64,000 nucleotides of DNA from Acetobacteraceae bacterium (GTDB lineage Bacteria > Pseudomonadota > Alphaproteobacteria > Acetobacterales > Acetobacteraceae). Position numbers and translations under genes: made by a program. Where the stretch lies: assembly GCA_027482245.1 (NCBI GenBank), contig JAIXWG010000061.1:62001-126000 (forward strand), read 5' to 3'. Below are positions 41,521-64,000 of the stretch, piece after piece. Below the pieces are notes generated by a model. That model made no database searches and was not told the DNA's origin. It saw only the letters and a list, made by a program, of their open reading frames with translations. Within the stretch, counting starts at the first letter, position 1. The number at the start of each line of letters is the position of its first letter.

Positions 41521-42236
41521 GACGTCTCTCCCAGGAACGGCCGGCTTCGGGCGATTTTTCGTTTGAGAAAGTCCCAGCGCAGGCCGAGGTTGGCCGCGTT
41601 CAGCAGGAACTTTTTCGACTGTGCGGCGGCGGCGGGATCAAGCTTCTGCAGCGGCCCCGCCGCGGCGGCGCGCAGCTGCACATCGGCGGCCCATTCCAGC
41701 ACGGTCATGCCGATGCAGGCCTCCGCGACGGAGGCGCCGACCACCAGCGCGCCATGGTTCTTCAGCAGCAAGCCGCGCTTCGGCCCCAGCGCCGCGGCGA
41801 TGGCATCGCCCTCGTTGGTATCGAGGACGATGCCGTGGAACTCGTCGAACAGCGCGATGTCGTCATGGAAGACGGCACCGGTCTGGGTGATCGTCTCCAG
41901 CGTCATCCCCGCACAGCCGAGCGCGACGCCGGCCTTGCCATGGGTGTGGATGATGCAGGTCACGTCCGGCCGCGCGCGATAGATGCGCGTGTGGATGTGC
42001 AGCGTCGGGTTGACGCGGCCCTGGCCGCGAGTCGTGTTCAGGTCGAAATCGGCCTCGATCAGCCCGTCCGCCCGCACCTCGTCGAAGCCGACGCCCCATT
42101 GGTGGGACCAGAAACGGTCCGACCCGGGCAGGCGCGCCGTCAGGTGGCCCGCGATACCGCTGGCCTGACCATCGGCGTCCAGGATGTGGTAGGCGTGCAG
42201 CAGGTCCTGCTTCAGCAGCCGCTCCGCGTCGCTCAC
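41517..42236 (-). CDS. class II aldolase/adducin-family protein
   Basis: A 239-residue zinc-dependent aldolase-fold protein (FucA/AraD family). Zinc ligands His-x-His are in CIIHTHGKAGVAL, with a third His in LLLKNHGALVVG. The N-terminus ADGQASGIAGHLTARLPG and SHQWGVGFDEV fit the family. It could be an aldolase or a decarboxylase. The GTG start at 42236 overlaps the TctC gene stop by 4 bases (GTGA) and is chosen for this coupling. Confidence 0.85.
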   Translation of the reverse strand: MSDAERLLKQDLLHAYHILDADGQASGIAGHLTARLPGSDRFWSHQWGVGFDEVRADGLIEADFDLNTTRGQGRVNPTLHIHTRIYRARPDVTCIIHTHGKAGVALGCAGMTLETITQTGAVFHDDIALFDEFHGIVLDTNEGDAIAAALGPKRGLLLKNHGALVVGASVAEACIGMTVLEWAADVQLRAAAAGPLQKLDPAAAAQSKKFLLNAANLGLRWDFLKRKIARSRPFLGETS

Positions 42237-43201: not shown

Positions 43202-43235
43202 CGTTCCTGCCCCCCTCGATGCGCCGCTTCGGGCG

Positions 43236-44201: not shown

Positions 44202-44242
44202 TCCTGTCGTTTCCTCAGATGACGCCCGTTTGCCGGGAGTCG

Positions 44243-45802
44243 TTAGACGCTACCGTAACCGCCGCCGCCGGGTGTTTCCATCAGCACTTCGTCGGTGGCG
44301 GCCATCGCCATCTTGCGGGCCTCGTTCACCGGCTTCCCGTTCACCAGGAAGCGCCCGGGCAACCCATCGCCGCCGCCTTCCAGTCCCTCCGGGCCGAGGT
44401 CCGTGCGGCTGGCCACCACGTTCAGCAGCCAGGGATCGTTGGTGCGCATGCGGTAGCCGATCACCTGGCCGTCGCCGCCCGGCATGCGCCCCGCGCCGCC
44501 CGACCCGCGCCGCAACTCCTTGCGCGTGAAGACGATGGGCATCGCCGCTTCCAGCACCTCCACCGGCACCGCCGCGACGCCCGTGGGGTAGCAGGTGGCG
44601 GAAAGGCCCGGCTTCTCCCGCCGCGCGCCCGTGCCGCCGGAGTAGTTGAACATGGACGAGGTGAAGGGCTGGCCCTCATCGTCCTTGCCCTGGATCTGGA
44701 TGGTCCAGACCGCGCCCGATCCCTCCGCCAGCACGCGGTCCGGCATCACCTGGTGCAGCGCCTTGAGCACGGGGAAGGGAACGTACATGCCGACGACGTG
44801 GCGCGCATTGACCGGCGCGGGGTAGCGGCAGTTCACGATGCTGCCTTCCGGCGCCACGACCTTCACGGGGAAGAGGCTGCCGTAGTTGTTCGGCAGGTCG
44901 GGGTCGAGGCAGGCGCGCACGGCGAAGTTCGCATAGGCCGCCGTGTAGTTCAGCACGACGTTGATGCCGATCGGCGCTTCCGGCGAGGAACCGGTGAAGT
45001 CGATCACCAGTTCGCCCGCCTGCGCATCGACGGTGACGGCGGCCTTCAGCGTGATCTTCTGCCCGCCGGGGACATCGAAGATGCTCTCGCCATGGTAGGT
45101 GCCGGGGGTGAGCTTGCGGATGCTCTCCCGCGTCGCGGCCTCCGACCGTCCGATGATGGCGTCCGACAGCGCCTCGATGTCATCGAAGCCGGTGCGGTCA
45201 CAGAGCGCGTTCAGCCGCTCCGCGCCGACGCGCCCCGCCGCCACCTGCGCGGCCAGGTCGCCCGCGACGTGGTCGGGCGTGCGGACGTTGCGGCGGATGA
45301 TGTCGAAGAGGAGGGCATTGGCGACGCCCTTCTCGTAGAGCTTCGCCAGCGGGATCCAGAGCCCTTCCTCATGCACGTCCCGCGCGCCGGCGCCGACGCC
45401 GTAGCCGCCGATGTCCGTGTGGTGGATGGTGCTGCCGAAGAAGCCGATGCAGCGATCGCCGCGGAAGACCGGCGTCATCACCGTGATGTCAAAGAAATGC
45501 CCGGCGGACAGCCAGGGATCATTGGTGATCAGCACATCGCCCGGCGAGAGGCTGTCCGGCGGGAAGGCACGGACAAAGTGCTGGCCGGCGGCGCCGAGGC
45601 TGTTGATGTGCCCCGGCGTCCCCGTCACCGCCTGCGCCACCATCCGCCCGCGCCGGTCGAAGAGCGCGGTGGCGAGGTCCCCCGCCTCACGCACGATCGG
45701 GCTGAAGGCGATGCGCTGCAGCGCGCGGGCCTGCTCCGTCACCGTCGCGATCAGGTTGGACCACTGGATCTCCAGCGCGATGCCGTCGAGTTGGGTGCTC
45801 AT
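44243..45802 (-). CDS. hydantoinase B/oxoprolinase-family subunit
   Basis: A 519-residue HyuB/OplB-type subunit. Family stretches are FSPIVREAGDLATALFDRRG, VLITNDPWLSAGHFFDITVM, FGSTIHHTDIGGYG and the end DEVLMETPGGGGYG. With HyuA it forms an ATP-dependent cyclic-amide hydrolase (N-methylhydantoin, 5-oxoproline or acetophenone-type carboxylase activity). It overlaps hyuA by 4 bases (ATGA). Length fits the HyuB type of hydantoinase rather than the longer acetone carboxylase subunits. Confidence 0.93.
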   Translation of the reverse strand: MSTQLDGIALEIQWSNLIATVTEQARALQRIAFSPIVREAGDLATALFDRRGRMVAQAVTGTPGHINSLGAAGQHFVRAFPPDSLSPGDVLITNDPWLSAGHFFDITVMTPVFRGDRCIGFFGSTIHHTDIGGYGVGAGARDVHEEGLWIPLAKLYEKGVANALLFDIIRRNVRTPDHVAGDLAAQVAAGRVGAERLNALCDRTGFDDIEALSDAIIGRSEAATRESIRKLTPGTYHGESIFDVPGGQKITLKAAVTVDAQAGELVIDFTGSSPEAPIGINVVLNYTAAYANFAVRACLDPDLPNNYGSLFPVKVVAPEGSIVNCRYPAPVNARHVVGMYVPFPVLKALHQVMPDRVLAEGSGAVWTIQIQGKDDEGQPFTSSMFNYSGGTGARREKPGLSATCYPTGVAAVPVEVLEAAMPIVFTRKELRRGSGGAGRMPGGDGQVIGYRMRTNDPWLLNVVASRTDLGPEGLEGGGDGLPGRFLVNGKPVNEARKMAMAATDEVLMETPGGGGYGSV

Positions 45803-47919
45803 ACCACGCGCTCCGCAATCACCGCGCCCGTCGGGTGCACGCTGGCCGTCCAGCCGCGCAGCACCACCAGCGTGGTCTCCCGTTCCTCGATGATGACAGG
45901 GCCTTCGATCTTCTGGCCGACGGCGATCGCGGCGCGGTCATAGACCGGCACCATCGGCACGCCGGGTTCCACTGCCACCGGGCGATGCGTGCGCGGGCTG
46001 GCCGGCGCGCCGCCGGCCATCGGCGAGGGGTTGGCGACCGGCAGCGGCCCACGCGCGGCCAGGCGCCAGGTCACGACCTCCACCGGGACATCGGGAAGGC
46101 GGATGCCGTAGAGGGCCTCATAGGCGCTCTCGAAGGCCTCCCGCAGCGCGGCCGCGTCGCCGCTCTCCAGCACCGCCAGCGGCAGGTCGGTCGTCACCTC
46201 GTTCTGCTGCCCGCGGTAGCGGCAATCGACGCCTAGTTCGAGCGTCGCATCCGCGGCCGCGACGCCGGCCTCCGCCAGCGCGGCGCGCCCCTCATCCGCC
46301 ATGCCGCCGACCAGCGCGCGCACGCCGGCCCAGTCCAGCGTCGCGAGCGGGGAGAGCGCTGAACGCACCAGGTCCAGCCGCACGGGGGAGACGAGGGTGC
46401 CGAAGGCCGACAGCACGCTCGCCATGGGCGGGAAGACCAGATGCCGGCATTCCAGCAGCTCCGCCACGCGGCAGGCATGCACGGGCCCCGCACCGCCGAA
46501 GGCCAGCATGGGCAGGCCGCGCCAGTCGATCCCGCGATCCGTCGCATGCGCGCGGGCGGCGCCCGCCATCTGTTCGCACACCACCTCGAACACGCCGCGC
46601 GCCGTCGCCACGGCGTCGGTGCCGAGGCGTTCGCCAAGCCTCCCCAGCGCCGCCGCCGCACCGGCCTTGTCCAGCTTCATGTCGCCACCGAGGAAGCGGT
46701 CCGCATCGAGCAGGCCGAGCACGACGTCGCTATCCGTCACCGTCGGCTCCGTGCCCCCGCGGCCGTAGCAGACCGGCCCCGGTTCCGATCCCGCGCTGCG
46801 CGGCCCGACCTTCAGCAGGCCGAGATTGTCCACGCGCGCGATGGAGCCGCCGCCTGCGCCGATCTCGATCATGTCCACGGCGGGGATGGTGATGGGGAAG
46901 CCGCTGCCGGGCTTGAAGCGGTAGCGGCGATCGACCTCGAACTCCCCGGCGACCAGCGGCTTGCCCGCATCGATCATGCAGGCCTTGGCCGTGGTGCCGC
47001 CCATGTCGAAGGACAGCAGGCGCGGCAGATGCAGCACCTCCGCGAAGTAGCTCGCGGCCAGCGCGCCGGCGGCGGGGCCGCTTTCGATCATGCGGACGGG
47101 GAAGGCGCCGGCGACGGAGGTGCCGACCACGCCGCCATTGCTCAGCATGATGAGCGGCCGGTTCGGAAAGCCCCGCCGCACCAGTTCCGCCGACAGTGCC
47201 GCCAGGTAGGGCGCGACGATGGGTTGGGTATAGGCGTTCATCACGGTCGTGGAGGCGCGCGGATATTCGCGGATCTGCGGCGAGACCTCCGACGAGAGGG
47301 TGACCTCCATGGAAGGCACCGCCGCCAGGATCGCCTCCCGCGCCGCCCGTTCATTGGCGCCGTTGCGATAGGCGTTGAGCAGGCAGATGCCGACGGCCTT
47401 CACGCCATCGGCGGCCATGCGCCGCGCCAGCGCCGCGGCCTCCGCGGCATCCACCGGCTTCTCCACCGCGCCGGTCGCCAGCATGCGTTCGTCGAGGGTG
47501 TAGACGAAGGCATCCGCCACCAGCGGATCCGGGAACTCAATCTGCGGGTCGAACATGTCGTAGCGATGTTCGTTGCGGATGCTCAGGATGTAGCGGAAGC
47601 CCTTCGTGGCCAGCAGCGCGGTCGGCGGGCCGCGACGCTCGATCACCGCATTGGTCACCAGCGTCGTGGCGTGGACGGTTACCTCCGTCACCGCCTCCGG
47701 CCCCACGCCGGTCTTGCCCAGCGCCAGGTCCACCGCGCGGAAGAAGCCCTCCAGCAGGTTGCGGTGGGTGGTCAGCGTCTTGTCCGTGGTCGCGCGGCCA
47801 TCGGCGTGGCGCAGGACGACATCGGTGAAGGTGCCGCCGATATCGACGGCGAGCGAATAGCCGGTGGTGGCCGTCATGGCGGCCGGGGCGCGCGGCGCGC
47901 CCGTGACATCGTCTGGCAC
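45799..47919 (-). CDS. hydantoinase A/oxoprolinase-family subunit
   Basis: A 706-residue ATP-binding partner of HyuB with an actin-like fold. It has LAVDIGGTFTDVVLRHADG near residue 23, ALVTNAVIERRGPPTALLAT, LLSFDMGGTTAKACMIDAGK and PMLAFGGAGPVHACRVAELL. The GTG start at 47919 is preferred for the GGAAGG site in front; the next ATG at 47877 has none. It is first in the leftward run that reaches to 39187. A terminator at 48028-48062 separates it from the PotABCD-like operon. Confidence 0.93.
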   Translation of the reverse strand: MPDDVTGAPRAPAAMTATTGYSLAVDIGGTFTDVVLRHADGRATTDKTLTTHRNLLEGFFRAVDLALGKTGVGPEAVTEVTVHATTLVTNAVIERRGPPTALLATKGFRYILSIRNEHRYDMFDPQIEFPDPLVADAFVYTLDERMLATGAVEKPVDAAEAAALARRMAADGVKAVGICLLNAYRNGANERAAREAILAAVPSMEVTLSSEVSPQIREYPRASTTVMNAYTQPIVAPYLAALSAELVRRGFPNRPLIMLSNGGVVGTSVAGAFPVRMIESGPAAGALAASYFAEVLHLPRLLSFDMGGTTAKACMIDAGKPLVAGEFEVDRRYRFKPGSGFPITIPAVDMIEIGAGGGSIARVDNLGLLKVGPRSAGSEPGPVCYGRGGTEPTVTDSDVVLGLLDADRFLGGDMKLDKAGAAAALGRLGERLGTDAVATARGVFEVVCEQMAGAARAHATDRGIDWRGLPMLAFGGAGPVHACRVAELLECRHLVFPPMASVLSAFGTLVSPVRLDLVRSALSPLATLDWAGVRALVGGMADEGRAALAEAGVAAADATLELGVDCRYRGQQNEVTTDLPLAVLESGDAAALREAFESAYEALYGIRLPDVPVEVVTWRLAARGPLPVANPSPMAGGAPASPRTHRPVAVEPGVPMVPVYDRAAIAVGQKIEGPVIIEERETTLVVLRGWTASVHPTGAVIAERVV

Positions 47920-51974: not shown

Positions 51975-52240
51975 GGCGGGGACTTTAGGCAATGCCGGTG
52001 CCAGGGCGCCATGCCCGCGGGCCGGGGAAAGACAGCCGGGAAGGCTGCGCGGCCCAAAACGGTTGCCTAAATTTTCCGCGAATGCCCGCTTTCGCATCGA
52101 CCCCCGGCTGGTCTATGCCTCACGCGCTTCGGGTCGCCCTGGCATGGGCCTTGCTGATTTCCGGCCATGCACCCTTCTACAGGGGCGAACCGCCGCGAGT
52201 CGGCGGCCACAACCGGGATGCGGAAGAAAGGGACAGGCGG

Positions 52241-53260
52241 ATGCGGACACGGTATCGGATCGAGCGGCGCGCGCTGCTCACGGGCGGCACGGCCTTCACC
52301 CTGGCGGCCGTCGCGGGCGCCAAGGTGCCGCTGGCCCAGACGCTGGAGAAGGTCTCCTTCCAGACCAACTGGCGCGCCCAGGCGGAACATGGCGGCTACT
52401 ACCATGCGGTCGCGTCGGGCATCTACCGGCGCTACGGCATCGACTGCGAGATCCGCATGGGCGGCCCGCAGCAGAACCCGGCGCAGCTGCTGCTGGCGGG
52501 CCGCGTGGACTTCATCATGTCCAACGGCTTCCAGGCGCTGAACTATGTGCGGGAGAACCTGCCCTTCCTGACCATCGGCGCCATCATGCAGAAGGACCCG
52601 CAGGTCCTGATGACGCATGAGGGCAACGGGATCAATTCCTTCGAGGACATGCGCGGCCGCCCGATCCTGATCGGCGCCTCCGGCCGCGTCACCTACTGGC
52701 CCTTCCTGCGCCGCCGCTTCGGCTTCACGGATGAGCAGATCCGCCCCTACACCTTCAATGTCGGCCCCTTCCTGGCGGACCGGATGGCGATCCAGCAGGG
52801 CTTCGTCTCCTCGGAGCCCTTCGCGGCCATGCAGGCGGGGGCGCGCCCGAGGGTCTTCCTGATCGCCGATGCGGGCTACAACAACTACAACACGACCATC
52901 GACGTCAGCCGCCGCATGGTGGCGGAGAAGCGGGACCTGGTGCAGCGCTTCGTCAGCGCCACGATGGAAGGCTGGACGCAGTACCTGGCCGGCCAGAACA
53001 TCGAGGCCGCGAATGCCCAGATCAAGCGCGACAACCCGGAGATGGACGACGCCAAGATCGCCTATGCGATCCAGGTGATGAACAGCAACGGCATCGTCAT
53101 GTCCGGCGACGCGCTGAACCTCGGCTGCGGCGCCATGACGCATGAACGCTGGCAGTCCTTCTACGAGGGCATGCGCGATGTCGGCCTCTATCCCGCCGGA
53201 ATGGATTTCCGCCAGGCCTACAGCCTGGACTTCGTGAACAAGCGGGTTGGCCTTGCATAA
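52241..53260 (+). CDS. NMT1/THI5-like ABC transporter substrate-binding protein
   Basis: A 339-residue periplasmic protein with twin-Arg-like signal (MRTRYRIERRALLTGGTAF). Family features: VSFQTNWRAQAEHGGYYHAV, YGIDCEIRMGGPQQNPAQLL, FIMSNGFQALNYVRE and RPILIGASGRVTYWPFLR. THI5-like proteins bind pyrimidines, and relatives bind sulfonates or riboflavin. The ATG at 52241 sits 3 bases after GGGACAGGCGG, the same leader as at 36880. Together with the ATPase, permease and the cytosine-deaminase-like gene it forms a four-gene operon. Confidence 0.9.
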   Translation: MRTRYRIERRALLTGGTAFTLAAVAGAKVPLAQTLEKVSFQTNWRAQAEHGGYYHAVASGIYRRYGIDCEIRMGGPQQNPAQLLLAGRVDFIMSNGFQALNYVRENLPFLTIGAIMQKDPQVLMTHEGNGINSFEDMRGRPILIGASGRVTYWPFLRRRFGFTDEQIRPYTFNVGPFLADRMAIQQGFVSSEPFAAMQAGARPRVFLIADAGYNNYNTTIDVSRRMVAEKRDLVQRFVSATMEGWTQYLAGQNIEAANAQIKRDNPEMDDAKIAYAIQVMNSNGIVMSGDALNLGCGAMTHERWQSFYEGMRDVGLYPAGMDFRQAYSLDFVNKRVGLA

Positions 53261-53261
53261 T

Positions 53262-54029
53262 ATGGACGTGGGGATCGGGGCGCCCGTCGTCTCCCTGGCC
53301 GGCGTGACCAAGCGCTACGCCAACGGGACGCTTGCGGTCAGGGGCGTGGAAATGGCCATCGGACAGGGGGACTTCGTCTCCCTGCTCGGTCCCTCCGGCT
53401 GCGGCAAGTCGACCGTGCTGCGCATGATGGCGGGCCTCATCCCGCCGAGTGCGGGGCGGATCGAGATGGCGGCGGGCGGCCATGCCTCCGGCGATGTCGG
53501 CTTCGTCTTCCAGGAGCCGACGCTCGCCCCCTGGTCCAACGCGCTGAAGAACGTGATGCTGCCGCTGCGTCTGGCGGGCGTGGCGAAGGCGGAGGCCGAG
53601 GCGCGCGCCGCCGCGGCCCTCGCTTCCGTCGGCCTGGCGGGCTTCGAGAAATCCTACCCCCGCGCGCTGTCCGGCGGCATGAAGATGCGCGTCTCCATCG
53701 CCCGCGCCCTGGTCACCCGGCCGCGGCTGCTGCTGATGGATGAGCCCTTCGCGGCGCTCGACGAGATCACGCGCCACAAGCTGAACAACGACCTGCTGAC
53801 GCTGTGGGAGGCGGAGCGCTTCACCGCCATCTTCGTCACTCATTCGGTGTTCGAAAGCGTCTACCTCTCTCGCCGCATCGTCGTCATGGCCGCGCGCCCC
53901 GGTCGCGTGGTGGAGGACCTCTCCGTGGATGCCCCCTATCCCCGAGGCGAGGTGTTCCGCACTTCCGCCGCCTATGCCGCCCATTGCCGCGACATCTCCG
54001 CGGCGCTGACCAGGGCGATGGGCGAATGA
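53262..54029 (+). CDS. nitrate/sulfonate/pyrimidine-type ABC transporter ATPase
   Basis: A 255-residue ATPase of the SsuB/TauB/ThiZ type. Walker A is GPSGCGKST near residue 42, the Q-loop is VFQEPTLAPWSNAL, the signature is ALSGGMKMRVSIARAL, Walker B is LLLMDEPFAALDEIT, and the switch is FVTHSVFESVYLS. The ATG at 53262 lies one base after the stop of the binding protein gene. It overlaps the permease gene by 4 bases (ATGA). Confidence 0.92.
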   Translation: MDVGIGAPVVSLAGVTKRYANGTLAVRGVEMAIGQGDFVSLLGPSGCGKSTVLRMMAGLIPPSAGRIEMAAGGHASGDVGFVFQEPTLAPWSNALKNVMLPLRLAGVAKAEAEARAAAALASVGLAGFEKSYPRALSGGMKMRVSIARALVTRPRLLLMDEPFAALDEITRHKLNNDLLTLWEAERFTAIFVTHSVFESVYLSRRIVVMAARPGRVVEDLSVDAPYPRGEVFRTSAAYAAHCRDISAALTRAMGE

Positions 54030-54886
54030 GCGTCGTCCTCTCCTCCAACGAGGCCGCGACGGCCGTCGAGGAGCATAGCGAGCGCAAGGTGATGGGCCTG
54101 ACGCCGGATGGCTGGCTGCGGATCATCGCGCCGCTGCTGATCGGCCTGCTGGCACTCGGCGCCTGGGAATGGGCGGTGCGGGCGAAGGAGATACCCTCCT
54201 ACATCCTGCCGGGCCCGATCGAGATCGGCCGCACGCTGCTGGCGGATTGGGGCACGCTGTCGGGATCACTGCTGATCACGCTGCAGATCACCTTCGCCGC
54301 GCTGACCGTCGCCGCCGTGCTTGGCCTGGCGCTCGCGGTGCTCTTCGCGCAGTCGCGCATCATCGAGCTGTCGCTGTTCCCCTATGCGGTCATCCTGCAG
54401 GTCACGCCGATCGTCGCCATCGCGCCGCTGATCTTCATCTGGGTGGACGACATCCGCATCGCGCTGCTGATCTGCGCCTGGATCGTCGCCTTCTTCCCGA
54501 TCCTGTCGAACACGACGCTCGGCCTGAACAGCGCCGACCACAACCTGGTGGACCTGTTCCGGCTGTACCGCGCCAATCGCTGGCAGGTGCTGCGCTACCT
54601 CCGCCTGCCCACCGCGATGCCCTATTTCCTCGCGGGGCTGCGCATCTCCGGCGGCCTGGCGCTGATCGGCGCCATCGTCGCGGAATTCGTGGCGGGCACG
54701 GGCGGACGGGCCTCGGGGCTGGCGTACCGGATTCTCGAGGCAGGCTACCAGCTGAAGATTCCCCGGATGTTCGCGTCCCTGGTGCTGATCTCCGTCACCG
54801 GCATCGCCATCTTCCTGGCGCTCAGCCTCATCTCCCATCTCGCGCTGCGCCACTGGCATGAAAGCGCGATGAAGGAACGCAAGTAG
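54026..54886 (+). CDS. nitrate/sulfonate/pyrimidine-type ABC transporter permease
   Basis: A 286-residue permease of the SsuC/TauC/ThiX type with about six membrane segments after a 35-residue polar N-terminus. Family parts: EIPSYILPGPIEIGRTLL, LQVTPIVAIAPLIFIWVDD and the EAA-like loop LFRLYRANRWQVLRYLRLPTA. The gene starts inside the ATPase stop (ATGA) and its last base begins the GTG of the amidohydrolase gene, so all four genes are coupled. Confidence 0.92.
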   Translation: MSVVLSSNEAATAVEEHSERKVMGLTPDGWLRIIAPLLIGLLALGAWEWAVRAKEIPSYILPGPIEIGRTLLADWGTLSGSLLITLQITFAALTVAAVLGLALAVLFAQSRIIELSLFPYAVILQVTPIVAIAPLIFIWVDDIRIALLICAWIVAFFPILSNTTLGLNSADHNLVDLFRLYRANRWQVLRYLRLPTAMPYFLAGLRISGGLALIGAIVAEFVAGTGGRASGLAYRILEAGYQLKIPRMFASLVLISVTGIAIFLALSLISHLALRHWHESAMKERK

Positions 54887-56214
54887 TGAAAACCGCCCTT
54901 GCCTCTGCCGGCAGCCGCTACTGGCTGCTGGATGCCCGCGTGCCTGCCGCGCTGCTCGCCCATCCCGAGGGTCCGGCCGAGGCCGATGGCCTGCACCGCG
55001 TCGATATCCGCATCGAGGATGGCCGCATCGCCGCCATCGTGCCGACCGGCCATGGCGGCGATGACGGGATCGATCTGCGCGGCGGCCAGGTCTGGCCGGG
55101 CTTCGTCGATGCCCACACGCATCTCGACAAGGGCCATATCTGGCCGCGGTCGCGCAACGCGGATGGCACCTTCGCCGGCGCCATCAACGCCGTCATGGCC
55201 GACCGCACCCAGGCCTGGAGCCCGGATGACGTCGCCGCCCGCGCCGACTTCTCGCTTCGCTGCGCCTATGCGCACGGCACCGTCGCCATCCGCACGCACC
55301 TCGACACCTACATGCCGCATGGCGCCGGCACCTGGCGCGTCTTCCGCAAGCTGCGCGACGATTGGGCAGGGCTCATCAATCTGCAGATGTCCTCCATCTG
55401 CCCGCTCGACCGCTTCAAGGGCGATGACGGCGCGGCGCTCGCCGACATGGTGGCGGAGAGTGGCGGCGTGCTCGGCATGGTCACGCGCCATTCCGGCGGC
55501 ATCCATGACGACCTGCCGGAGGGGTTCCAGGAGGAACTCGACCACTTCTTCTCCCTCGCCGAGGCCCGCAACCTCGACCTCGACCTGCATGTGGACGAGA
55601 GCGGGGAGACCGGTGCCCGCGCGCTGCGGGAGATCGCGCTGACGGCGCTGAAGCGCGGCTTCAAGGGCCGCATCCAGGCCGGCCATTGCTGTTCGCTGTC
55701 GATCCAGCCGGAGGAGTTCGCGAAGGAGACCATCGCCCGCGTGGCGGAGGCCGGGATCGACATCGTCGTCCTGCCGATGTGCAACATGTACCTCCAGGAC
55801 CGCGTGCCGAACCGCACGCCCCGCTGGCGCGGCGTGACGCTGGTGCATGAAATGCGCGCGGCCGGCATCCGCGTCTCCGTCGCGTCCGACAACACGCGCG
55901 ATCCCTTCTACGCCTATGGCGACCTCGACATGGCGGAAGTGTTCCGGGAGGCGACGCGCATCCTCCACCTCGACCATCCCTTCGGGGACTGGCACGGCGC
56001 CGCGGCGGCCGCGCCGGCGGAGGCGATGCAGGTGGATCGCCAGCACGGCCGAATCCGCGTCGGCGCCACGGCCGACCTTGTGCTGTTCTCCGCCCGCTTC
56101 ATGACGGAGCTGCTCTCCCGCCCGCAATCCGACCGGGTCGTGCTGCGGGCGGGCAAGGTGCTGGAGGCGACGGCGCCGGACTGGCGGGAGCTGGATGCGA
56201 TCGTCGGTCTCTGA
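54886..56214 (+). CDS. cytosine-deaminase-like amidohydrolase
   Basis: A 442-residue metal-dependent amidohydrolase nearest to cytosine deaminase. Metal ligands: His77 and His79 (VDAHTHLDKGH), a third His in DLHVDESGE, and Asp in VASDNTRDPF. RIQAGHCCSLSIQPEE holds a further active-site His. It has C-terminal strands with GATADLVLFSARF. CodA-like enzymes also act on isoguanine, creatinine and related amidines, so substrate is open. The GTG at 54886 overlaps the permease stop by one base. The transporter before it likely imports the substrate. Confidence 0.9.
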   Translation: MKTALASAGSRYWLLDARVPAALLAHPEGPAEADGLHRVDIRIEDGRIAAIVPTGHGGDDGIDLRGGQVWPGFVDAHTHLDKGHIWPRSRNADGTFAGAINAVMADRTQAWSPDDVAARADFSLRCAYAHGTVAIRTHLDTYMPHGAGTWRVFRKLRDDWAGLINLQMSSICPLDRFKGDDGAALADMVAESGGVLGMVTRHSGGIHDDLPEGFQEELDHFFSLAEARNLDLDLHVDESGETGARALREIALTALKRGFKGRIQAGHCCSLSIQPEEFAKETIARVAEAGIDIVVLPMCNMYLQDRVPNRTPRWRGVTLVHEMRAAGIRVSVASDNTRDPFYAYGDLDMAEVFREATRILHLDHPFGDWHGAAAAAPAEAMQVDRQHGRIRVGATADLVLFSARFMTELLSRPQSDRVVLRAGKVLEATAPDWRELDAIVGL

Positions 56215-56797: not shown

Positions 56798-56868
56798 CGT
56801 GATTGTCCCGGTTCTTGGCGGCCGGGATGTGCAACAATCAGCGCCAGCTTTGCAAGGAACGTCGCCGC

Positions 56869-57300
56869 ATGATGGCCGCCCCCGTCCTGTCCCGCCGCGC
56901 CGCCGATCTCCGCGGCTTCCGCATCGCGCCTGGTGACAGCAACTACTTCGCCTGCCTCTTCGATCCCGTGGCCGATGGCGTCACCTTCACCCTGGTGGTG
57001 GAGATCTTCGAGCCCGGCGGCCGCACGCCGCCCAACACCCACAGCGCCGCGGAGGAATGCTTCTTCGTCCTGGCCGGCTCCGGCAAGGCCTATGCGGATG
57101 GCGTGGAGATGCCCGTCGGCCCCGGCGACTGCTTCGTGCTGCGCCCGGGCACGGAGCATGTCGTCGTCAACGACACGGACGAAAAACTCTACTGCCTGAC
57201 GATGATGACGCCGAACGAGGGTTTCGCCGAACTCATCCGTAACGGCACGCCGGTGGAGCTGGCGCCGGAGGACATTGCCATCATCGCGGGGCGCCGCTGA
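56869..57300 (+). CDS. cupin-domain protein
   Basis: A 143-residue cupin. Motif 1 is GGRTPPNTHSAAEECFFVLAG (one His, then Glu), motif 2 is RPGTEHVVVNDTDE. The conserved first motif has Asn-Thr-His in place of a His-x-His, so metal binding may be weaker. AAGGAA lies 10 bases before the ATG at 56869. It overlaps the downstream quinone reductase gene by one base (TGATG), suggesting a joint role with the two flavoproteins. Confidence 0.85.
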   Translation: MMAAPVLSRRAADLRGFRIAPGDSNYFACLFDPVADGVTFTLVVEIFEPGGRTPPNTHSAAEECFFVLAGSGKAYADGVEMPVGPGDCFVLRPGTEHVVVNDTDEKLYCLTMMTPNEGFAELIRNGTPVELAPEDIAIIAGRR

Positions 57301-57881
57301 TGCGCATCCACTACCTCTATGCCCATCCGCTGGAAGACAGTTTCCATGCCGCGATCAGCCGTGCCGCGCGGGACGGGCTGCGCGATGCCGGCCACCACGT
57401 GGATTTCTGCGACCTCTATGCGGAAGGCTTCAACCCCGTCCTCAGCGCGGAGGAACGCCGCGGCTACCATGAGGTGCCCGCCAATCAGGAACCCGTCGCC
57501 GACTACGTCCGCCGCCTGATGGAGGCGGAGGCGCTTGTCCTGTCCTTCCCCACCTGGTGCTTCGGCCTGCCCGCGATCCTCAAGGGCTGGATGGACCGCG
57601 TGATGCTGCCTGGCGTGTCCTTCAAGCTGGAGGACGGCATTGCCTCGCCCAACCTGCTGCACATCCGGAAGGTCGCGGGCATCAGCACCTATGGCCGCCC
57701 GCGCTGGACGGCGATGATGATGGGCGATCCGCCGCGCAAGATCGTCACGCGCTACTTCAAGGTGGTCAGCGGCGGGCGCGCTTCGGTGCAGTACCACGCG
57801 CTCTACGACATGAACCGCGCCACCGAACACCAGCGCGCGACCTTCCTCGCCAAGGTGAGGCGGGAGATGGCGGGGTTCTGA
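57300..57881 (+). CDS. flavodoxin-fold NAD(P)H dehydrogenase (quinone) family protein, copy B
   Basis: A 193-residue homolog of the gene at 56216 with the same length and shared motif DLYAEGFNPVLSAEERRGYH. It also has VLSFPTWCFGLPAILKGWMD and RIHYLYAHPLEDSFHAAI at the phosphate loop. Two related copies flank the cupin gene, one on each strand. It likely forms one unit with the cupin and may be a specialised quinone or nitro reductase. Confidence 0.88.
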   Translation: MRIHYLYAHPLEDSFHAAISRAARDGLRDAGHHVDFCDLYAEGFNPVLSAEERRGYHEVPANQEPVADYVRRLMEAEALVLSFPTWCFGLPAILKGWMDRVMLPGVSFKLEDGIASPNLLHIRKVAGISTYGRPRWTAMMMGDPPRKIVTRYFKVVSGGRASVQYHALYDMNRATEHQRATFLAKVRREMAGF

Positions 57882-57946: not shown

Positions 57947-58912
57947 ATGATCTCACGCAGGCTGGCCTTGGGCATGGCGGGTCTTCTCGCCGCCCCCTCG
58001 CTCGCGACGGCGCAGGCCGCCTGGCCGAACCGGCCGGTGCGCATCATCGTGCCCTTCGGCCTCGGCGGGTCCGCCGATGTCGCGGCGCGCTTCCTGGGCG
58101 AGCAGCTGCAGCAGGCGCTCGGCCAGGCCTTCGTCATCGAGAACCGCCCCGGCGCCGGCGCCGTGATCGGCACGGATGCCGTCGCGAAGGCGGCGCCCGA
58201 TGGCTACACGCTGCTGCTGATGTCGAACACGCATACGGCGAACGAGACGCTGATCCCGAACCGGCCCTACCAGCTGATGCGGGATCTGGCGCCGGTCGCG
58301 GCGATCAACGTCGCCTATCACGTGCTGGCCGTACATCCCTCCATCCCCGCCACGACGGTGCCGGAGCTGATCGCGCTGCTGCGCGCCAATCCGGGCCGCT
58401 ACGACTACGCCTCCTCCGGCCCCGGTACGCCCTATCACGTGGCGGGCGAGGTCTTCCTCTCCATGGCGGGCGTGCAGGCGCAGCACGTGCCCTTCCGTGG
58501 GTCGAACGAGGCCCGCACCGCCGTCATCGGCGGGCAGGTGCCGATCATGTTCGACGCCATCCCGACGATGCGAGAGCAGGTGGCCGCCGGCCGCGTGCGC
58601 GCCCTGGCCACCACGGGCCCGACGCGCAGCCCGCTGATGCCGGATGTGCCCGCGGTGGCGGAAGCGCTGCCGGGCTACGAGGCCAGCATCTGGCTCGGCC
58701 TGATGGCGCCCGCCGCGCTGCCGCAGCCGATCAAGGATCGCCTGAACGCGGAGGTGAACCGCATCCTTGCGCTGCCCGCCACGCAGGAAGCCCAGGCCCG
58801 CGCCGGCGCCGCGCCGCTGCCCATGTCCATCGCGGAGTTCGACGAGTTCCTGCGCCGCGACATCACCCGCCAGGCGGAATACATCCGCATGGCGCGCATG
58901 ACGCCCTCGTGA
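57947..58912 (+). CDS. TctC/Bug-family tripartite tricarboxylate-type binding protein
   Basis: A 321-residue periplasmic binding protein with signal MISRRLALGMAGLLAAPSLA. Family parts: WPNRPVRIIVPFGLGGSAD, VIENRPGAGAVIGTDAVA, APDGYTLLLMSN, and MPDVPAVAEALPGYEASIW. GGGAGGG lies just before the ATG at 57947. Its stop overlaps the GTG of the 2Fe-2S gene by 3 bases, placing uptake at the head of the catabolic operon. No membrane subunits are nearby. Confidence 0.92.
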   Translation: MISRRLALGMAGLLAAPSLATAQAAWPNRPVRIIVPFGLGGSADVAARFLGEQLQQALGQAFVIENRPGAGAVIGTDAVAKAAPDGYTLLLMSNTHTANETLIPNRPYQLMRDLAPVAAINVAYHVLAVHPSIPATTVPELIALLRANPGRYDYASSGPGTPYHVAGEVFLSMAGVQAQHVPFRGSNEARTAVIGGQVPIMFDAIPTMREQVAAGRVRALATTGPTRSPLMPDVPAVAEALPGYEASIWLGLMAPAALPQPIKDRLNAEVNRILALPATQEAQARAGAAPLPMSIAEFDEFLRRDITRQAEYIRMARMTPS

Positions 58913-59376
58913 GTGTCTCCTTCACCCTGAACGGCGCGGCGGTGACCGCGCCGATCGAGGAGGATGCGCCGCTACTGGCCGCGCTGCGCGGCCCGCTCGG
59001 CCTGTCCGGCCCGCGCTTCGGCTGCGGGGCGGAACAATGCGGCGCCTGCCTGGTGCTGGTCGATGGCGCCCCCGCCTACAGTTGCACGCTGCACACGGGC
59101 GCGGTCGCCGGGAAGCGCGTGACGACGGTGGAGGGCCTCGGCACGCCGGAGGCCCCGCATCCGTTGCAGGCGGCGTTTCTTGAACTCCAGGCCGGGCAAT
59201 GCGGCTTCTGCCTCTCCGGCATCCTGCTGCGCGCCTCGGTGCTGCTGCGGGACAATCCCGATCCCAGCGAGGATGAGGTGCGCGCGGCGCTCGATCCGCA
59301 TCTCTGCCGCTGCGGCAGCCACAACCGGATCGTGCGCGCGGTGCTGCGCGCGGCCGCGCAAGGGCAGCCGGCATGA
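58909..59376 (+). CDS. 2Fe-2S subunit of a molybdenum hydroxylase
   Basis: A 155-residue electron-transfer subunit of the xanthine-oxidase family. It carries two 2Fe-2S clusters: plant-ferredoxin type with Cys39, 44, 47 and 59 (RFGCGAEQCGACLVL), and the second with Cys98, 101, 133 and 135 (GQCGFCLSGIL and LCRCGSHNRIV). It pairs with the molybdenum subunit that follows with a 4-base ATGA overlap. The GTG at 58909 is fixed by the overlap with the TctC gene stop. No FAD subunit gene is present, as in IorAB and nicotinate dehydrogenase. Confidence 0.93.
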   Translation: MSVSFTLNGAAVTAPIEEDAPLLAALRGPLGLSGPRFGCGAEQCGACLVLVDGAPAYSCTLHTGAVAGKRVTTVEGLGTPEAPHPLQAAFLELQAGQCGFCLSGILLRASVLLRDNPDPSEDEVRAALDPHLCRCGSHNRIVRAVLRAAAQGQPA

Positions 59377-61520
59377 ACCTGGCCTTCCGCAACGCCGTGC
59401 AGGGCGGCGACGACAAGCCGAAGCTGCCGGGCAGCCTCCATGTGAACCGCCGGCTCGACCAGTGGCTGTCGATCCAGCCCGAAGGCACGGTCACCATCAC
59501 GCCGGGAAAGGTCGAGCTGGGGCAGGGGATCGTCACGGCGCTCGCCCAGATCGCGGCGGAGGAGCTGGACGTCGCGCTTTCCCGCATCGTCATGCGCCCG
59601 GCCTCCACGCCGGCCAGCCCGGACGAGGCGGTGACGAGCGGCAGCCTCTCCGTCCAGGAATCCGGCATGGCCATCCGCCATGCCTGCGCCGAGGCGCGTG
59701 GCATCTTTGTGAGTGTCATCGCGCAGCGGACGGGCGTGCCGCGCGAGGATATCGCAGTCCAGGACGGCGACTTCATAGCGCCGGATGGCCGCGTGCTCGG
59801 TTCCTACTGGTCCATGGCCGATGCCGCGCTGCTGGCGGTGGAGGCGACGCCGGGCCACCGCGCCAAGCCTGCTTCCGCGCGCCGCATCACCGGAACCTCG
59901 ACGCCGCGCCTCGACCTGCCCGCCAAGGTCTTCGGCCAGCCGCGCTTCGTCCACGATTTGCGCCTGCCCGGCATGCTGCATGCCCGCATGGTCCGCCCCG
60001 GCGCGCGCGGTGCGACGCTGGCCGCGCTGAAGGACGGGCCGCTGCCCGGTGGTGCGACGGTCTTCCGCAGCGGCAGCGTCCTCGCCGCCGTCGCTGCGCA
60101 GGAACACCATGCGGAGGCCGCCGCCGCGCGCCTCGCCGCGCGCGCAACCTGGGACGCCGCGGACACGCTGCCGGAGGAGCACGCGCTGGAGGCCTGGATG
60201 GAGGCCGCGCCGCGCGAGGACTCCACCGTGCTGGAGCGCGACGCGGAGACGCCCGCCGCCACCCGCACGATCAGGCGCCGCTTCTTCCGCCCCTTCATCA
60301 CCCACGGCTCCATCGGGACGTGCTGCGCGATCGCGCAGTGGAACGGAGACACGGTCGAGATCTGGTGCCACAGCCAGGGCATCTACAACCTCCGCGCCGA
60401 CCTGACGAAGGCGCTGCGGATGCCGGCCGAAGACATCATCCTGCATCACGTCGAGGGTGCCGGCTGCTACGGCCATAACGGCGCCGATGATGTCGCCCTC
60501 GATGCCGCGCTGATCGCCCGCGCGCACCCCGCCACGCCGATCCGCGTCCTCTGGTCCCGCGCCGAGGAACTCGCCTGGGGCCCCGCATCGCCCGCGATGA
60601 TCGTCGATGTGGCGGCGGAGGCCGACGACTCCGGCACGCTGCTGCGCTGGACGCAGAACGTGCTCTCCAACGGGCATTCCGGCCGCCCCGGCCGCGGCGC
60701 GCTGCCGACGCTGCTCGCGGCCTCGATGATGGAGGATGGCTTCGCCGTCCCGCCCGCCATCAACCCGCCGCTGGCCGGTGGCGGCGGCGCGCAGCGCAAC
60801 GCCGTGCCGCCCTATCGCGTGCCGGCGCTGCGCGTGGACATGACGCGCATCACCGCCATGCCGCTCCGCAGCTCCGCGCTGCGCGGTCTCGGCGCACTGG
60901 TGAATGTCTGGGCGATCGAGAGCGTCATGGACGAACTCGCCGCCCAGGCCGGCGAGGATCCGCTCGCGCACCGCCTCCGTCACCTCGATGATGCGCGGTC
61001 GCGTGACGTTCTGGCGCGCGCCGCGCTGATGGCAGACTGGCCGAACCGCTTGAAGCGCGACGGCGTCGGGATGGGCCTCGCCGTCTCCCGCTACAAGGGC
61101 AGCGGCGCCTGGTGCGCTGCCGTGGCGGAGGTCGAGGCCGGGGAGCGCATCCGCTGCACCCGCCTCTGGCTCGCCGCCGATGTGGGGGAGGTGGTGAACC
61201 CCGACGGCTCGCTGAACCAGATCGAGGGCGGCGCCATCCAGGCGACCTCGCTCTGTCTGCTGGAAGCGGTGCGCCACGATGCGCGCACCGTCACCTCCGA
61301 CAGCTGGGAGAGCTACCCGATCCTCCGCTTCTCCGACGTCCCGCGCGTGCAGGCCGAACTCATCGCGCGGCCGGAGGCGCCGCCGCTCGGTGCCGGCGAA
61401 TGCAGCCTTGGCCCCGTCATCGCCGCCATCGCCAATGCCATCGCCGATGCGCTTGATGTCCGCGTCACGCGCTGGCCCTTCACGCCCGACAATATCGCCC
61501 GCGCCATGGATGAAGCATGA
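59373..61520 (+). CDS. molybdopterin-binding subunit of a xanthine dehydrogenase-family hydroxylase (IorB/NicB-like)
   Basis: A 715-residue molybdenum-cofactor subunit. Family parts: GKVELGQGIVTALAQIAAEE, TGTSTPRLDLPAKVFGQPRF, FITHGSIGTCCAIAQW, a Moco-binding stretch around residues 355-400, and the catalytic Glu in PPLGAGECSLGP. The HGSIG segment and lack of a separate FAD subunit place it with IorB/nicotinate-dehydrogenase types, which hydroxylate N-heterocycles. It has no C-terminal cytochrome domain, so an external acceptor is needed. It overlaps the next gene by 4 bases (ATGA). Confidence 0.9.
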   Translation: MNLAFRNAVQGGDDKPKLPGSLHVNRRLDQWLSIQPEGTVTITPGKVELGQGIVTALAQIAAEELDVALSRIVMRPASTPASPDEAVTSGSLSVQESGMAIRHACAEARGIFVSVIAQRTGVPREDIAVQDGDFIAPDGRVLGSYWSMADAALLAVEATPGHRAKPASARRITGTSTPRLDLPAKVFGQPRFVHDLRLPGMLHARMVRPGARGATLAALKDGPLPGGATVFRSGSVLAAVAAQEHHAEAAAARLAARATWDAADTLPEEHALEAWMEAAPREDSTVLERDAETPAATRTIRRRFFRPFITHGSIGTCCAIAQWNGDTVEIWCHSQGIYNLRADLTKALRMPAEDIILHHVEGAGCYGHNGADDVALDAALIARAHPATPIRVLWSRAEELAWGPASPAMIVDVAAEADDSGTLLRWTQNVLSNGHSGRPGRGALPTLLAASMMEDGFAVPPAINPPLAGGGGAQRNAVPPYRVPALRVDMTRITAMPLRSSALRGLGALVNVWAIESVMDELAAQAGEDPLAHRLRHLDDARSRDVLARAALMADWPNRLKRDGVGMGLAVSRYKGSGAWCAAVAEVEAGERIRCTRLWLAADVGEVVNPDGSLNQIEGGAIQATSLCLLEAVRHDARTVTSDSWESYPILRFSDVPRVQAELIARPEAPPLGAGECSLGPVIAAIANAIADALDVRVTRWPFTPDNIARAMDEA

Positions 61521-62473
61521 CCCAGCTCTCGCTCGCCTGCACCCTCACCGACCGCACCCGCGCCGTGGTGGAGGGACGCATCAAGGTCGAGGGCTTCGAC
61601 ATCGCCTTCACCCCTGGCGAGCCTGAGGACCTATTCCGCATCGCGATGCGGGAGGCGCGCTACGACATCACGGAGATGTCGATGGGCAGCCACATCCTCT
61701 CCGTCGCGCGCGGTGACAGCCGCTACATCGGCGTGCCCGTCTTCCCGAGCCGCGCCTTCCGCCATTCCGCCATCTACATCCGCACGGACCGCGGTATCGC
61801 CGGGCCGAAGGATCTGGCCGGGCGCGTGATCGGCCTGCCGGAATACCAGCAGACCGCGGCCGTCTGGGTGCGCGGCGTGCTGCGCGACCATTACGGCGTG
61901 GACCTGTCCGGCATCACCTGGAAGGTCGCCGGCGAACGCACGCCGATCGTGCTGCCCCCGCAGATCCGGAAGGAGAGCATCGCGGAGGGCCAGACGCTGG
62001 ACGCCATGCTGGCGGCCGGGGAGATCGACGCCGTCATCGCGCCGCGTCCGCCCGGCTGCTTCGTGAACCGGACGGCGCCCGTGGCGCGCCTGTTCCCCGA
62101 TTTCCGCAGCCATGAGGAAGCCTACTACAAGGCCACGGGCTTCTTCCCGATCATGCACTGCATCGCCATCCGGCGGGACGTGGCGGCGGCCAATCCAGGC
62201 CTGCCCATGGCGCTGTTCAACGCCTTCAGCGCCGCCAAGGCCCATGCGCTGGCGGAAGCTGCGATGGTGAACGTGTTGCGCGTCTCCATCCCGTGGATCG
62301 CGGCGGAGGTCGCGAAGCAGACGGAGTTCATGGGAGGCGACCCCTGGCCCTACGGCTTCCAGCGCAACCGCGCGGAGATTGCCGCCATGTGCGGCTTCTC
62401 CGCGGCCGATGGCCTGACTTCCCAGGACGTGCAGCCGGAGGCACTGTTTCACGAGACGACGCACGGCGTGTAA
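61517..62473 (+). CDS. 4,5-dihydroxyphthalate decarboxylase-like protein
   Basis: A 318-residue protein without a signal peptide, with a periplasmic-binding-protein fold used in the cytosol. It matches the dihydroxyphthalate decarboxylase family: LACTLTDRTRAVVEGRI near the start, DITEMSMGSHILSVARGD, IPVFPSR-like VPVFPSRAFRHSAIYIR, and VIAPRPPGCF. The family decarboxylates 4,5-dihydroxyphthalate to protocatechuate. ATGA overlap with the molybdenum subunit shows that the two act together. Here the real substrate may be a hydroxylated heteroaromatic acid. Confidence 0.82.
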   Translation: MTQLSLACTLTDRTRAVVEGRIKVEGFDIAFTPGEPEDLFRIAMREARYDITEMSMGSHILSVARGDSRYIGVPVFPSRAFRHSAIYIRTDRGIAGPKDLAGRVIGLPEYQQTAAVWVRGVLRDHYGVDLSGITWKVAGERTPIVLPPQIRKESIAEGQTLDAMLAAGEIDAVIAPRPPGCFVNRTAPVARLFPDFRSHEEAYYKATGFFPIMHCIAIRRDVAAANPGLPMALFNAFSAAKAHALAEAAMVNVLRVSIPWIAAEVAKQTEFMGGDPWPYGFQRNRAEIAAMCGFSAADGLTSQDVQPEALFHETTHGV

Positions 62474-62503
62474 CCGCCGGCGCGCTTTGGGAGGAACCAA
62501 CCA

Positions 62504-63469
62504 ATGATCCGTACCGGAAGGCGCGCCCTGCTGGGCGCCGCTGCCCTTCTCGCCGCGCCGCGCATCGCCAGCGCGCAGTCCAACACCATCCGCATCGTGG
62601 TGCCCTTCGGCCCCGGCGGATCCACGGACGCCGTCGCGCGGCTGGTGGCGCCCGGTGTGGGCGCGAAGCTCGGCGCGACCGTCGTGGTGGAGAACCGGTC
62701 CGGCGCCGCGGGCTCCATCGGCGCCGACATCGTGGCGAAGGCCCGACCGGACGGCCTGACCTGGATGCTGACCTTCGACAGCCACGCGACCATCCCCGCG
62801 CTGCTGCGCACGCCGCCGCTGAACGTACTGACGGACCTCGACCCCGTCATGCTCATCGGCGGATCGCCCTATGCCGTCGCCTGCAAGCCGGACAAGCCCT
62901 TCCGCACCCTGGCGGATGCGGTGGCGCGGGCGAAGGCGCAGCGGGACAGCGTTTCCTACGGCTCCACCGGCAACGGCACCATCGGCCACCTCACGATGAT
63001 CCAGCTGGGCGACCGGGAAGGCACCAGCTTCCAGCACGTGCCCTATCGCAGCGGCGGGCTCGCGGTGAATGACGCCGTCGCCGGCCATGTGGACATGATG
63101 ATCGGCAGCGCCGCGCTCATGCTGCCGCACATCGCCGGCGGGTCGCTGCGCCCGCTGATGCAGTTCGGCCCGACGCGGCTTGCGGGCCTGCCCGATACGC
63201 CCACCAGCGCGGAAGGCGGCTATGCGGGGCTGGAGGCCGAGGCCTGGTGGGGCGTCTGGGGCCCGAAGGGAACGCCGCCCGCCATGATCGCCGCCATGAA
63301 CGCCGCGCTGCGCGAAGCGCTCTCCGAGGAACGCGCCCGCCGCGTGATGACGGAAACGCAGCAGGCCCGCCTGGTGCTGTCCTCGCCCGAGGAACTCCGC
63401 ACCTTCTTCGCCCGCCAGGTGGAGACCTGGGGCGCGATCGTGCGCGCCAACAACATCCAGCCGGATTGA
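62504..63469 (+). CDS. TctC/Bug-family tripartite tricarboxylate-type binding protein
   Basis: A 321-residue periplasmic binding protein with signal MIRTGRRALLGAAALLAAPR. Family parts: IRIVVPFGPGGSTDAVARL, VVVENRSGAAGSIGADIVA, LPDTPTSAEGGYAGLEAEAW. GGGAGGAACC sits 7 bases before the ATG at 62504. It is the second TctC protein in this operon, divergent from the one at 57947, so two related carboxylates may be taken up. It lies 5 bases before the RraA-like gene. Confidence 0.92.
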   Translation: MIRTGRRALLGAAALLAAPRIASAQSNTIRIVVPFGPGGSTDAVARLVAPGVGAKLGATVVVENRSGAAGSIGADIVAKARPDGLTWMLTFDSHATIPALLRTPPLNVLTDLDPVMLIGGSPYAVACKPDKPFRTLADAVARAKAQRDSVSYGSTGNGTIGHLTMIQLGDREGTSFQHVPYRSGGLAVNDAVAGHVDMMIGSAALMLPHIAGGSLRPLMQFGPTRLAGLPDTPTSAEGGYAGLEAEAWWGVWGPKGTPPAMIAAMNAALREALSEERARRVMTETQQARLVLSSPEELRTFFARQVETWGAIVRANNIQPD

Positions 63470-63474
63470 CCCTG

Positions 63475-64000
63475 ATGTCCTTCGACCGCCTGCCTTCGGA
63501 TGTCCTCGCCCGCTTCGCGAAGCTGCCTTCCTCCTCCGTCTCCGATGCCTGCGACAAGCTTGGCATCGCGGGGCAGGTGGATGGGCTGAAGCCGATGCTG
63601 CAGGGCGCGCGCATCTGCGGCCAGGCGGTCACGCTGCGCTACATGCCGGTCGGCCCGGCGGGTGGCACGGTGGGGGATTTCCTGCATCTGGCGGAGGCCG
63701 GCGACGTCGTCGTCATCGACAATCGCGGCAGGCTCGACTGCACGGTCTGGGGCAACATCCTGACCGAATTCGCCAAGGCCCGCGGCGTGGCCGGCACGGT
63801 GATCGATGGCGTGAACCGCGATGTGACGGAGAGCCGCGACTACGGCTACCCCATCTGGTCCCGCGCCAACCATTCCCGCACAGGCAAGGACCGCGTGGCG
63901 CTGGATGCGACGAACGTGCCCGTCGTGCTCGGCCATGTCCGCGTCGATCCGGGCGACGTCATCTGCGCGGATGACAGCTGCGTCGTCTGCGTCCCCCTGA
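63475..64000 (+). CDS. RraA-like aldolase-family protein (partial, cut by the window end)
   Basis: The ATG at 63475 starts a frame open to the window end (175 residues seen). It matches the RraA/HMG-aldolase family: LPSSSVSDACDKLGIAGQV at the front, VGPAGGTVGDFLHLAEAGDV, and IDNRGRLDCTVWGNIL. The Arg-Asp pair lies in GVNRDVTES, fitting a lyase active site. It is 5 bases after the second TctC gene, so it ends or continues the operon that starts at 57947. A pyruvate-releasing lyase would suit the last step of ring-cleavage product breakdown. Confidence 0.85.
   Translation, partial: MSFDRLPSDVLARFAKLPSSSVSDACDKLGIAGQVDGLKPMLQGARICGQAVTLRYMPVGPAGGTVGDFLHLAEAGDVVVIDNRGRLDCTVWGNILTEFAKARGVAGTVIDGVNRDVTESRDYGYPIWSRANHSRTGKDRVALDATNVPVVLGHVRVDPGDVICADDSCVVCVPL

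Follow-up and report, generated by a model that had tools for sequence, protein, structure and literature searches.

What acid might a bacterium break down when it places a molybdenum hydroxylase beside a protein that resembles a phthalate-pathway decarboxylase? The question is raised by six same-direction genes at the end of the window, by which we mean the whole 64,000-nucleotide stretch of DNA analysed here (G000:C27:62001-126000, from a genome of 6.39 Mb). In order, they are tctC1, encoding a periplasmic binding protein; feS and mo, encoding the iron-sulfur and molybdenum subunits of the hydroxylase; a decarboxylase-like gene; tctC2, encoding a second binding protein; and an RraA-like gene (Table 1). 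Protein similarity places the source genome most probably in Falsiroseomonas: its decarboxylase-like protein shares 96-97% identity with those of Falsiroseomonas stagni, F. algicola, and Roseomonas ponticola. We find that the first four genes form a conserved core, and we tentatively read this core, at a little under an even chance, as a catabolic module that would take up a ring acid, hydroxylate it at a molybdenum center, and decarboxylate it, with quinolinate as the favored substrate.

A Conserved Four-Gene Core

A first-pass annotation of this DNA had described the six genes as one tightly coupled operon. The coupling was borne out: tctC1, feS, mo, and the decarboxylase-like gene are joined by three successive 4-base overlaps, tctC2 starts 30 bases past the decarboxylase-like gene, and the ATG of the RraA-like gene at 63475 lies 5 bases past the tctC2 stop, with the end of that gene at L009:8147. 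The families proposed for the binding proteins and for both hydroxylase subunits also stood, with Pfam matches to TctC, to Fer2 and Fer2_2, to MoCoBD_2 and MoCoBD_1, again to TctC, and to the RraA-like family.

The extent of the operon had to be revised. We compared the best 80 of 229 decarboxylase loci from a scan of GTDB genomes, counting a neighboring gene when it showed at least 50% identity, had the same orientation, and lay no more than 6 kb away; genes in the relatives were called with a simple GC3 (third-position G+C) script, and their starts may be wrong. The decarboxylase gene is accompanied by tctC1 in 74 loci and by feS and mo, both upstream of it, in 64. tctC2 is found in 33 of the 80 and the RraA-like gene in 3, and the conserved unit is therefore tctC1-feS-mo-decarboxylase, smaller than six genes. 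Further neighbors are an FAH-family gene (15 loci), a flavin monooxygenase (7), and a cupin with a second flavodoxin (7). All three loci with the RraA-like gene belong to close relatives of the window strain; this putative lyase is lineage-specific and, like the genes upstream of the core, supplements the conserved unit among strains closely related to that of the window.

The annotation had proposed examining whether the neighborhood is conserved. Order and spacing of the first four genes are kept across many genera, and the possibility that their relatives lie scattered through genomes is therefore ruled out. In many genera, the site of the module lies between a group of ATP-grasp, alpha-E, and protease genes and queC/queG.

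Co-occurrence was assessed across 200 genomes sampled from the family. Relatives of mo form a group of at least 54% identity with 31 loci in 30 genomes, one of the loci being split into two fragments; below this group are two fragments at 51% in genome G098 and other matches at 48% or less. The decarboxylase group likewise comprises 30 genomes at 54% identity or more, and the next match is at 49%. Both genes occur together in 28 genomes, mo alone in 2, the decarboxylase alone in 2, and neither in 168. A decarboxylase gene follows mo on the same strand at 25 of its 31 loci, that of the window included; it lies within 150 bases in 24 cases and 2.2 kb away in the other (L052). In a sample of 397 genomes from the phylum (E 1e-60), no decarboxylase relative above 48% was found outside the genus, and a pattern scan of viral contigs found no relative.

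Variants of the arrangement were also seen. Eight loci in metagenome-assembled genomes (L095-L102) carry tctC1-decarboxylase-tctC2 at the usual site, where no FeS or molybdenum subunit genes were seen. In another alphaproteobacterial family, one operon pairs both enzyme types (G281:C1:1583261-1595786; L161 and L193): it comprises an FAA hydrolase, a 48% relative of the decarboxylase, TctCBA-type genes, feS, a distant mo (36%), a CoA ligase, and an OsmC-like gene, the TctCBA, OsmC, and CoA ligase labels having been given by eye. On plasmids of Roseomonas marmotae and R. haemaphysalidis (L169, L170), the module is accompanied by an FCD-type regulator and an FAH gene.

A Two-Subunit Molybdenum Hydroxylase

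Judged by their domain architecture, feS and mo encode a two-subunit molybdenum hydroxylase of the IorAB type. Pfam finds two MoCoBD_2 and two MoCoBD_1 stretches in Mo, and their order is permuted: the best MoCoBD_2 match (31-154) precedes MoCoBD_1 (295-434), and the C-terminal part of the permuted order lies at about 580-714. This agrees with the IorB-like label of the annotation, as does the run of genes without a flavin adenine dinucleotide (FAD) subunit, none being found in the operon from the window gene list and Pfam. The glutamate of the GxGE motif, which we take to be the catalytic glutamate motif of the molybdenum subunit, is invariant at E676 in 37 of 37 aligned proteins. In-frame TGA codons reported in several relatives of mo raised the possibility of selenocysteine, which we reject: in tblastn alignments of these loci, a stop occurs in one only (L055), at its C-terminal end, where it is the normal stop.

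NicB carries a cytochrome domain. The likeness of the window enzyme to the IorAB and NicAB hydroxylases is one of architecture and lies in the separate subunit with two [2Fe-2S] domains, the permuted molybdenum subunit, and the missing FAD subunit. Unlike NicB, Mo has no cytochrome domain that we could find, nor a twin-arginine translocation (Tat) signal by eye, and the unit contains no cytochrome gene; the gene neighbors also differ from those of the IorAB and NicAB systems.

A Decarboxylase-Like Protein in a Clade of Its Own

No Pfam family matches the decarboxylase-like protein over cut-off. In the PDB, the one clear match to its sequence is 9jp7, the solved 4,5-dihydroxyphthalate decarboxylase of Comamonas testosteroni KF-1 (241 bits, 1.2e-70, 40% identity), and its AlphaFold2 (AF2) model, with a predicted local distance difference test (pLDDT) score of 91.5, superimposes on that structure with a template modeling (TM) score of 0.92. 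According to this model, the protein has the fold of the solved decarboxylase, which substantiates the name it had been given.

This fold is of the periplasmic-binding-protein kind, and the protein could instead be a solute-binding protein, which would reduce the unit to transport plus a molybdenum enzyme. Both homologues on the Roseomonas plasmids are annotated in databases as ABC (ATP-binding cassette) transporter substrate-binding proteins, and Pfam gives weak matches, below cut-off, to binding proteins. No signal sequence was seen by eye, however, and the identity and TM score to the solved decarboxylase stand against a TM score of at most 0.63, by query length, for the other structures among the best 50 listed, binding proteins included. 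We regard this alternative as very improbable.

A tree of 40 rows places the window protein in a clade of 28 (support 100/99) separate from a clade of 9 (98/97) containing 9jp7 and a second copy from the same genome, on contig C22. The C22 copy matches 9jp7 more closely (428 bits versus 241 for the window copy), which leaves the window copy free for another substrate. It lies in a phthalate-type cluster (G000:C22:6511-11083; L167) beside genes for Rieske/LigXa_C, ferredoxin-type reductase, and GFO/IDH/MocA proteins, a set that resembles the genes around the 4,5-dihydroxyphthalate decarboxylase on a Polaromonas plasmid. The same genome has another relative, on contig C54 (269 bits to 9jp7). The window protein thus resembles the known decarboxylase in predicted fold and differs from it in clade and in its partner, a molybdenum hydroxylase in place of the Rieske and GFO/IDH/MocA proteins beside the C22 copy; no phthalate Rieske oxygenase or dihydrodiol dehydrogenase was found at the window locus.

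A Possible Route from Quinolinate

From these genes we infer an order of reactions, a ring nitrogen, a substrate, and the fate of its product. The TctC protein would capture a ring dicarboxylic acid. Inside the cell, the Mo/[2Fe-2S] hydroxylase would add a hydroxyl group next to the ring nitrogen and, because there is no FAD subunit, would pass its electrons to some other acceptor. The decarboxylase with the binding-protein fold would then remove one carboxylate. For quinolinate (pyridine-2,3-dicarboxylate), these steps would yield 6-hydroxyquinolinate and then 6-hydroxypicolinate, from which a flavoenzyme resembling 3-hydroxybenzoate 6-hydroxylase could, in relatives, make 3,6-dihydroxypicolinate.

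Quinolinate corresponds to phthalate with one ring carbon replaced by nitrogen, and the position next to that nitrogen, C6, is of the kind favored by molybdenum hydroxylases. 6-Hydroxyquinolinate is likewise the aza-analogue of 4-hydroxyphthalate, and in 6-hydroxypicolinate the hydroxyl and carboxylate groups are related as in 3-hydroxybenzoate. A Comamonas dihydroxyphthalate decarboxylase is also active on 4-hydroxyphthalate, as a passage in a review states. A review passage on Alcaligenes sp. UK21 describes a highly specific decarboxylase that converts 6-hydroxyquinolinate to 6-hydroxypicolinate, with no cofactor requirement reported there, and likens it to the phthalate decarboxylases, placing them in the UbiD family; the title of Uchida 2003 pairs quinolinate dehydrogenase with 6-hydroxyquinolinate decarboxylase. 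The route proposed here resembles that of UK21, compared by these descriptions, in that hydroxylation is followed by a decarboxylation with no reported cofactor. We found no gene sequences for the UK21 enzymes in the open-licence literature. The pathway had first been taken for an undescribed one; the two quinolinate steps are in fact known biochemically, and what stands of that claim is that we know of no genes for them. The pic cluster for picolinate in Alcaligenes faecalis and Bordetella, with the dehydrogenase picA1A2A3, picB1-B4, and picC according to a passage in PMC10142695, would share 6-hydroxypicolinate as an intermediate. None of these pic genes, and no nicX-type gene, was recognized by eye at the window locus, to which this search was limited.

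A gene for the flavoenzyme lies downstream of the module in 7 of the 80 loci. The one protein tested scored 500 bits against the NCBIfam model for 3-hydroxybenzoate 6-monooxygenase (cut-off 459) and, as read by hand, keeps Tyr105, His213, and Gln301 (chain numbering), which vary among four solved sequences; by analogy, such an enzyme would suit 6-hydroxypicolinate. Its clade (at least 68% identity) occurs in 7 of the 30 genomes with the core and in 1 of the 170 others (Fisher 6e-6, a test that ignores relatedness), and the sole noncore genome, G166, carries it at the same chromosomal site, between protease and yhhQ genes. At two further loci (L195, on G000:C48, and L200, on G087:C203), a gene for a 3-hydroxybenzoate-6-hydroxylase-like flavoenzyme adjoins one of the class II aldolase family (Pfam in L195, by eye in L200), and a TctC gene lies close by; this is perhaps another pairing with a decarboxylase.

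Counterevidence and Competing Substrates

Several observations weigh against the quinolinate reading. Although tctC1 belongs to the same TctC family as the quinolinate-binding proteins Bug27 and Bug69 (172 bits), the contacts are not kept: the Bug27 side chains reported, in a passage of the source paper, to touch docked quinolinate (Thr22, Cys136, Gln142, Cys165, Thr183, and Asn228, the last being the Asn of YELNQW and number 227 in our chain count) align with Ala, Ser, Tyr, Ser, Ala, and Ser in TctC1, and quinolinate binding by way of these residues is unsupported. The operon in the window genome lacks an enzyme for the step after decarboxylation, and for the flavoenzyme a search of that genome at E 1e-70 gives a single match, a 50% relative on C48. 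As to the lower 2,5-dihydroxypyridine pathway, the genome holds 11 matches to PF17645, a maleate-isomerase-type family. The pairing of mo and decarboxylase is also incomplete. Six of the 31 mo loci lack an adjacent decarboxylase gene, and 16 of the 80 decarboxylase loci, the eight of L095-L102 among them and one (L143) cut off upstream, have no mo within 6 kb. In a second family, f53, a decarboxylase relative occurs in 17 of 275 genomes, never close to a scored mo match (no more than four mo candidates were scored per genome), the nearest being about 22 kb away.

Enzyme families fix the chemistry and not the substrate, and the same two steps could act on another N-heteroaromatic acid, such as cinchomeronate, isocinchomeronate, or a substituted pyridine dicarboxylate. 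The absence of the Bug27 contact residues from TctC1 would fit such a substrate, but quinolinate is the substrate of the sole enzyme pair with this make-up that we found described, known to us from the review passage and title cited above. We consider another heteroaromatic acid unlikely.

A benzenoid route would have the molybdenum enzyme prepare a hydroxyphthalate, which the decarboxylase would convert to 3-hydroxybenzoate and the flavoenzyme to gentisate, to be degraded by gentisate dioxygenase and an FAH protein. Some of the genomic evidence points this way and counts against quinolinate. Gentisate 1,2-dioxygenase scores over cut-off in 18 of the 30 core genomes, the window's included, versus 15 of the 170 others (Fisher 2e-9, confounded by relatedness). 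The FAH genes at 15 of the 80 loci lie before the module in 14 and before the decarboxylase alone in one. On plasmid pBB2 of Cupriavidus necator N-1, a 45% relative of the decarboxylase lies near a cupin, an FAH gene, and an FAD monooxygenase, with no molybdenum enzyme gene in the stretch shown, and the reviewed activity of a Comamonas enzyme on 4-hydroxyphthalate would suit this chemistry as well. Against it, the flavoenzyme clade found here (at least 68%) is distinct from copies at about 50%, a number of which have a gentisate dioxygenase match no more than 3 kb away (over cut-off in G168 and G059, below it in others such as G147, G083, and G031). Twelve of the 30 core genomes have no gentisate dioxygenase over cut-off, and the one FAH gene scored, that of L053, fell below all the NCBIfam cut-offs listed, its best match being a rhamnonate-pathway hydrolase. 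We know of no molybdenum hydroxylase that hydroxylates the ring of a plain benzene carboxylate. All told, we rate the benzenoid route as quite unlikely.

Finally, the molybdenum enzyme might be an aldehyde oxidoreductase and supply the decarboxylase with its aromatic acid. The AF2 model of Mo (pLDDT 89.1) has as its top Foldseek match 8gy3, the membrane-bound aldehyde dehydrogenase of Gluconobacter (TM 0.81), ahead of 4-hydroxybenzoyl-CoA reductase, aldehyde oxidases, and quinoline 2-oxidoreductase at about 0.6, and the Gluconobacter enzyme is the best match by sequence too; this again counts against a ring hydroxylase acting on quinolinate. The sequence match, however, is of 24% identity and reflects architecture, not substrate; to our knowledge, the Gluconobacter enzyme may be alone among solved proteins in having the permuted order. 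The lack, noted above, of a Tat signal (by eye) and of a cytochrome gene in the unit also speaks against this role, which we hold to be improbable. The annotation had allowed a pyridine or a benzene carboxylic acid: a ring acid that is taken up, hydroxylated, and decarboxylated is still the best reading, most likely quinolinate or another pyridine dicarboxylate; a benzenoid ring ranks lower, and quinolinate is the substrate we retain.

Genes Around the Core

Table 1. Genes of the window locus, listed by position
Feature	Position	Strand	Evidence
Lineage-specific cupin, upstream, start uncertain	56818..57300	+	Pfam Cupin_2
Lineage-specific flavodoxin-fold oxidoreductase, upstream	57300..57881	+	Pfam Flavodoxin_2
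tctC1, TctC/Bug-type periplasmic binding protein	57947..58912	+	Pfam TctC, 207 bits; signal sequence by eye
feS, [2Fe-2S] subunit of two-subunit molybdenum hydroxylase	58909..59376	+	GTG start; Pfam Fer2 and Fer2_2
mo, IorB-type (permuted) molybdopterin subunit, 715 aa	59373..61520	+	Pfam MoCoBD_2 and MoCoBD_1
Decarboxylase-like protein, periplasmic-binding-protein fold	61517..62473	+	PDB 9jp7 match; AF2 model; tree
tctC2, second TctC-type binding protein	62504..63469	+	Pfam TctC, 195 bits
RraA-like gene	63475..64000 and 146 bases past the window	+	Pfam RraA-like, 120 bits (first 177 aa)

The complete RraA-like protein matches 3k4i (8e-42) and stays below the cut-offs of the models for LigK-type aldolases (108 versus 304.5 bits for TIGR02798 and 106 versus 179 for NF006731). 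Downstream of its gene, the opposite strand encodes Vut_1, QueC, and QueG proteins by Pfam and, by eye, an acetyltransferase, an amidotransferase, and more queuosine genes; no further pathway gene was recognized as far as L009:19901.

Upstream of the cupin and the flavodoxin-fold oxidoreductase lies an inverted flavodoxin gene. Farther upstream, ABC transporter genes are followed by an amidohydrolase (51992-56214; NCBIfam cytosine deaminase, 610 bits versus a cut-off of 403), a set that among the 80 loci is found only in Falsiroseomonas-type relatives. By Pfam, the opposite strand at 39187-47919 encodes hydantoinase/oxoprolinase A and B proteins; the group also has a protein resembling dihydroorotate dehydrogenase, which scores below cut-off, together with three TctC proteins and a small cupin recognized by eye.

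Implications

Compared with the open-licence literature, the combination of enzymes and the separate decarboxylase clade are new to us; the enzymes themselves are of known kinds. The database label of binding protein would be corrected to that of an enzyme-like fold, and a single genome shows a clean split of one decarboxylase family into a phthalate-type branch and a molybdenum-coupled branch.

These genes may be the first set described for quinolinate catabolism, an aza-copy of phthalate catabolism in Roseomonas-type bacteria, a possibility that we put forward with considerable doubt. If it is true, the place of the Rieske dioxygenase has been taken by a molybdenum hydroxylase, and 6-hydroxyquinolinate and 6-hydroxypicolinate have become the targets of enzymes related to dihydroxyphthalate decarboxylase and 3-hydroxybenzoate 6-hydroxylase. 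Genes would be assigned to an enzyme pair that we know only as biochemistry. Quinolinate is both a precursor of nicotinamide adenine dinucleotide (NAD) and a neurotoxin; the module would offer a directly testable route for its removal, and Roseomonas-type bacteria would be consumers of an NAD precursor.

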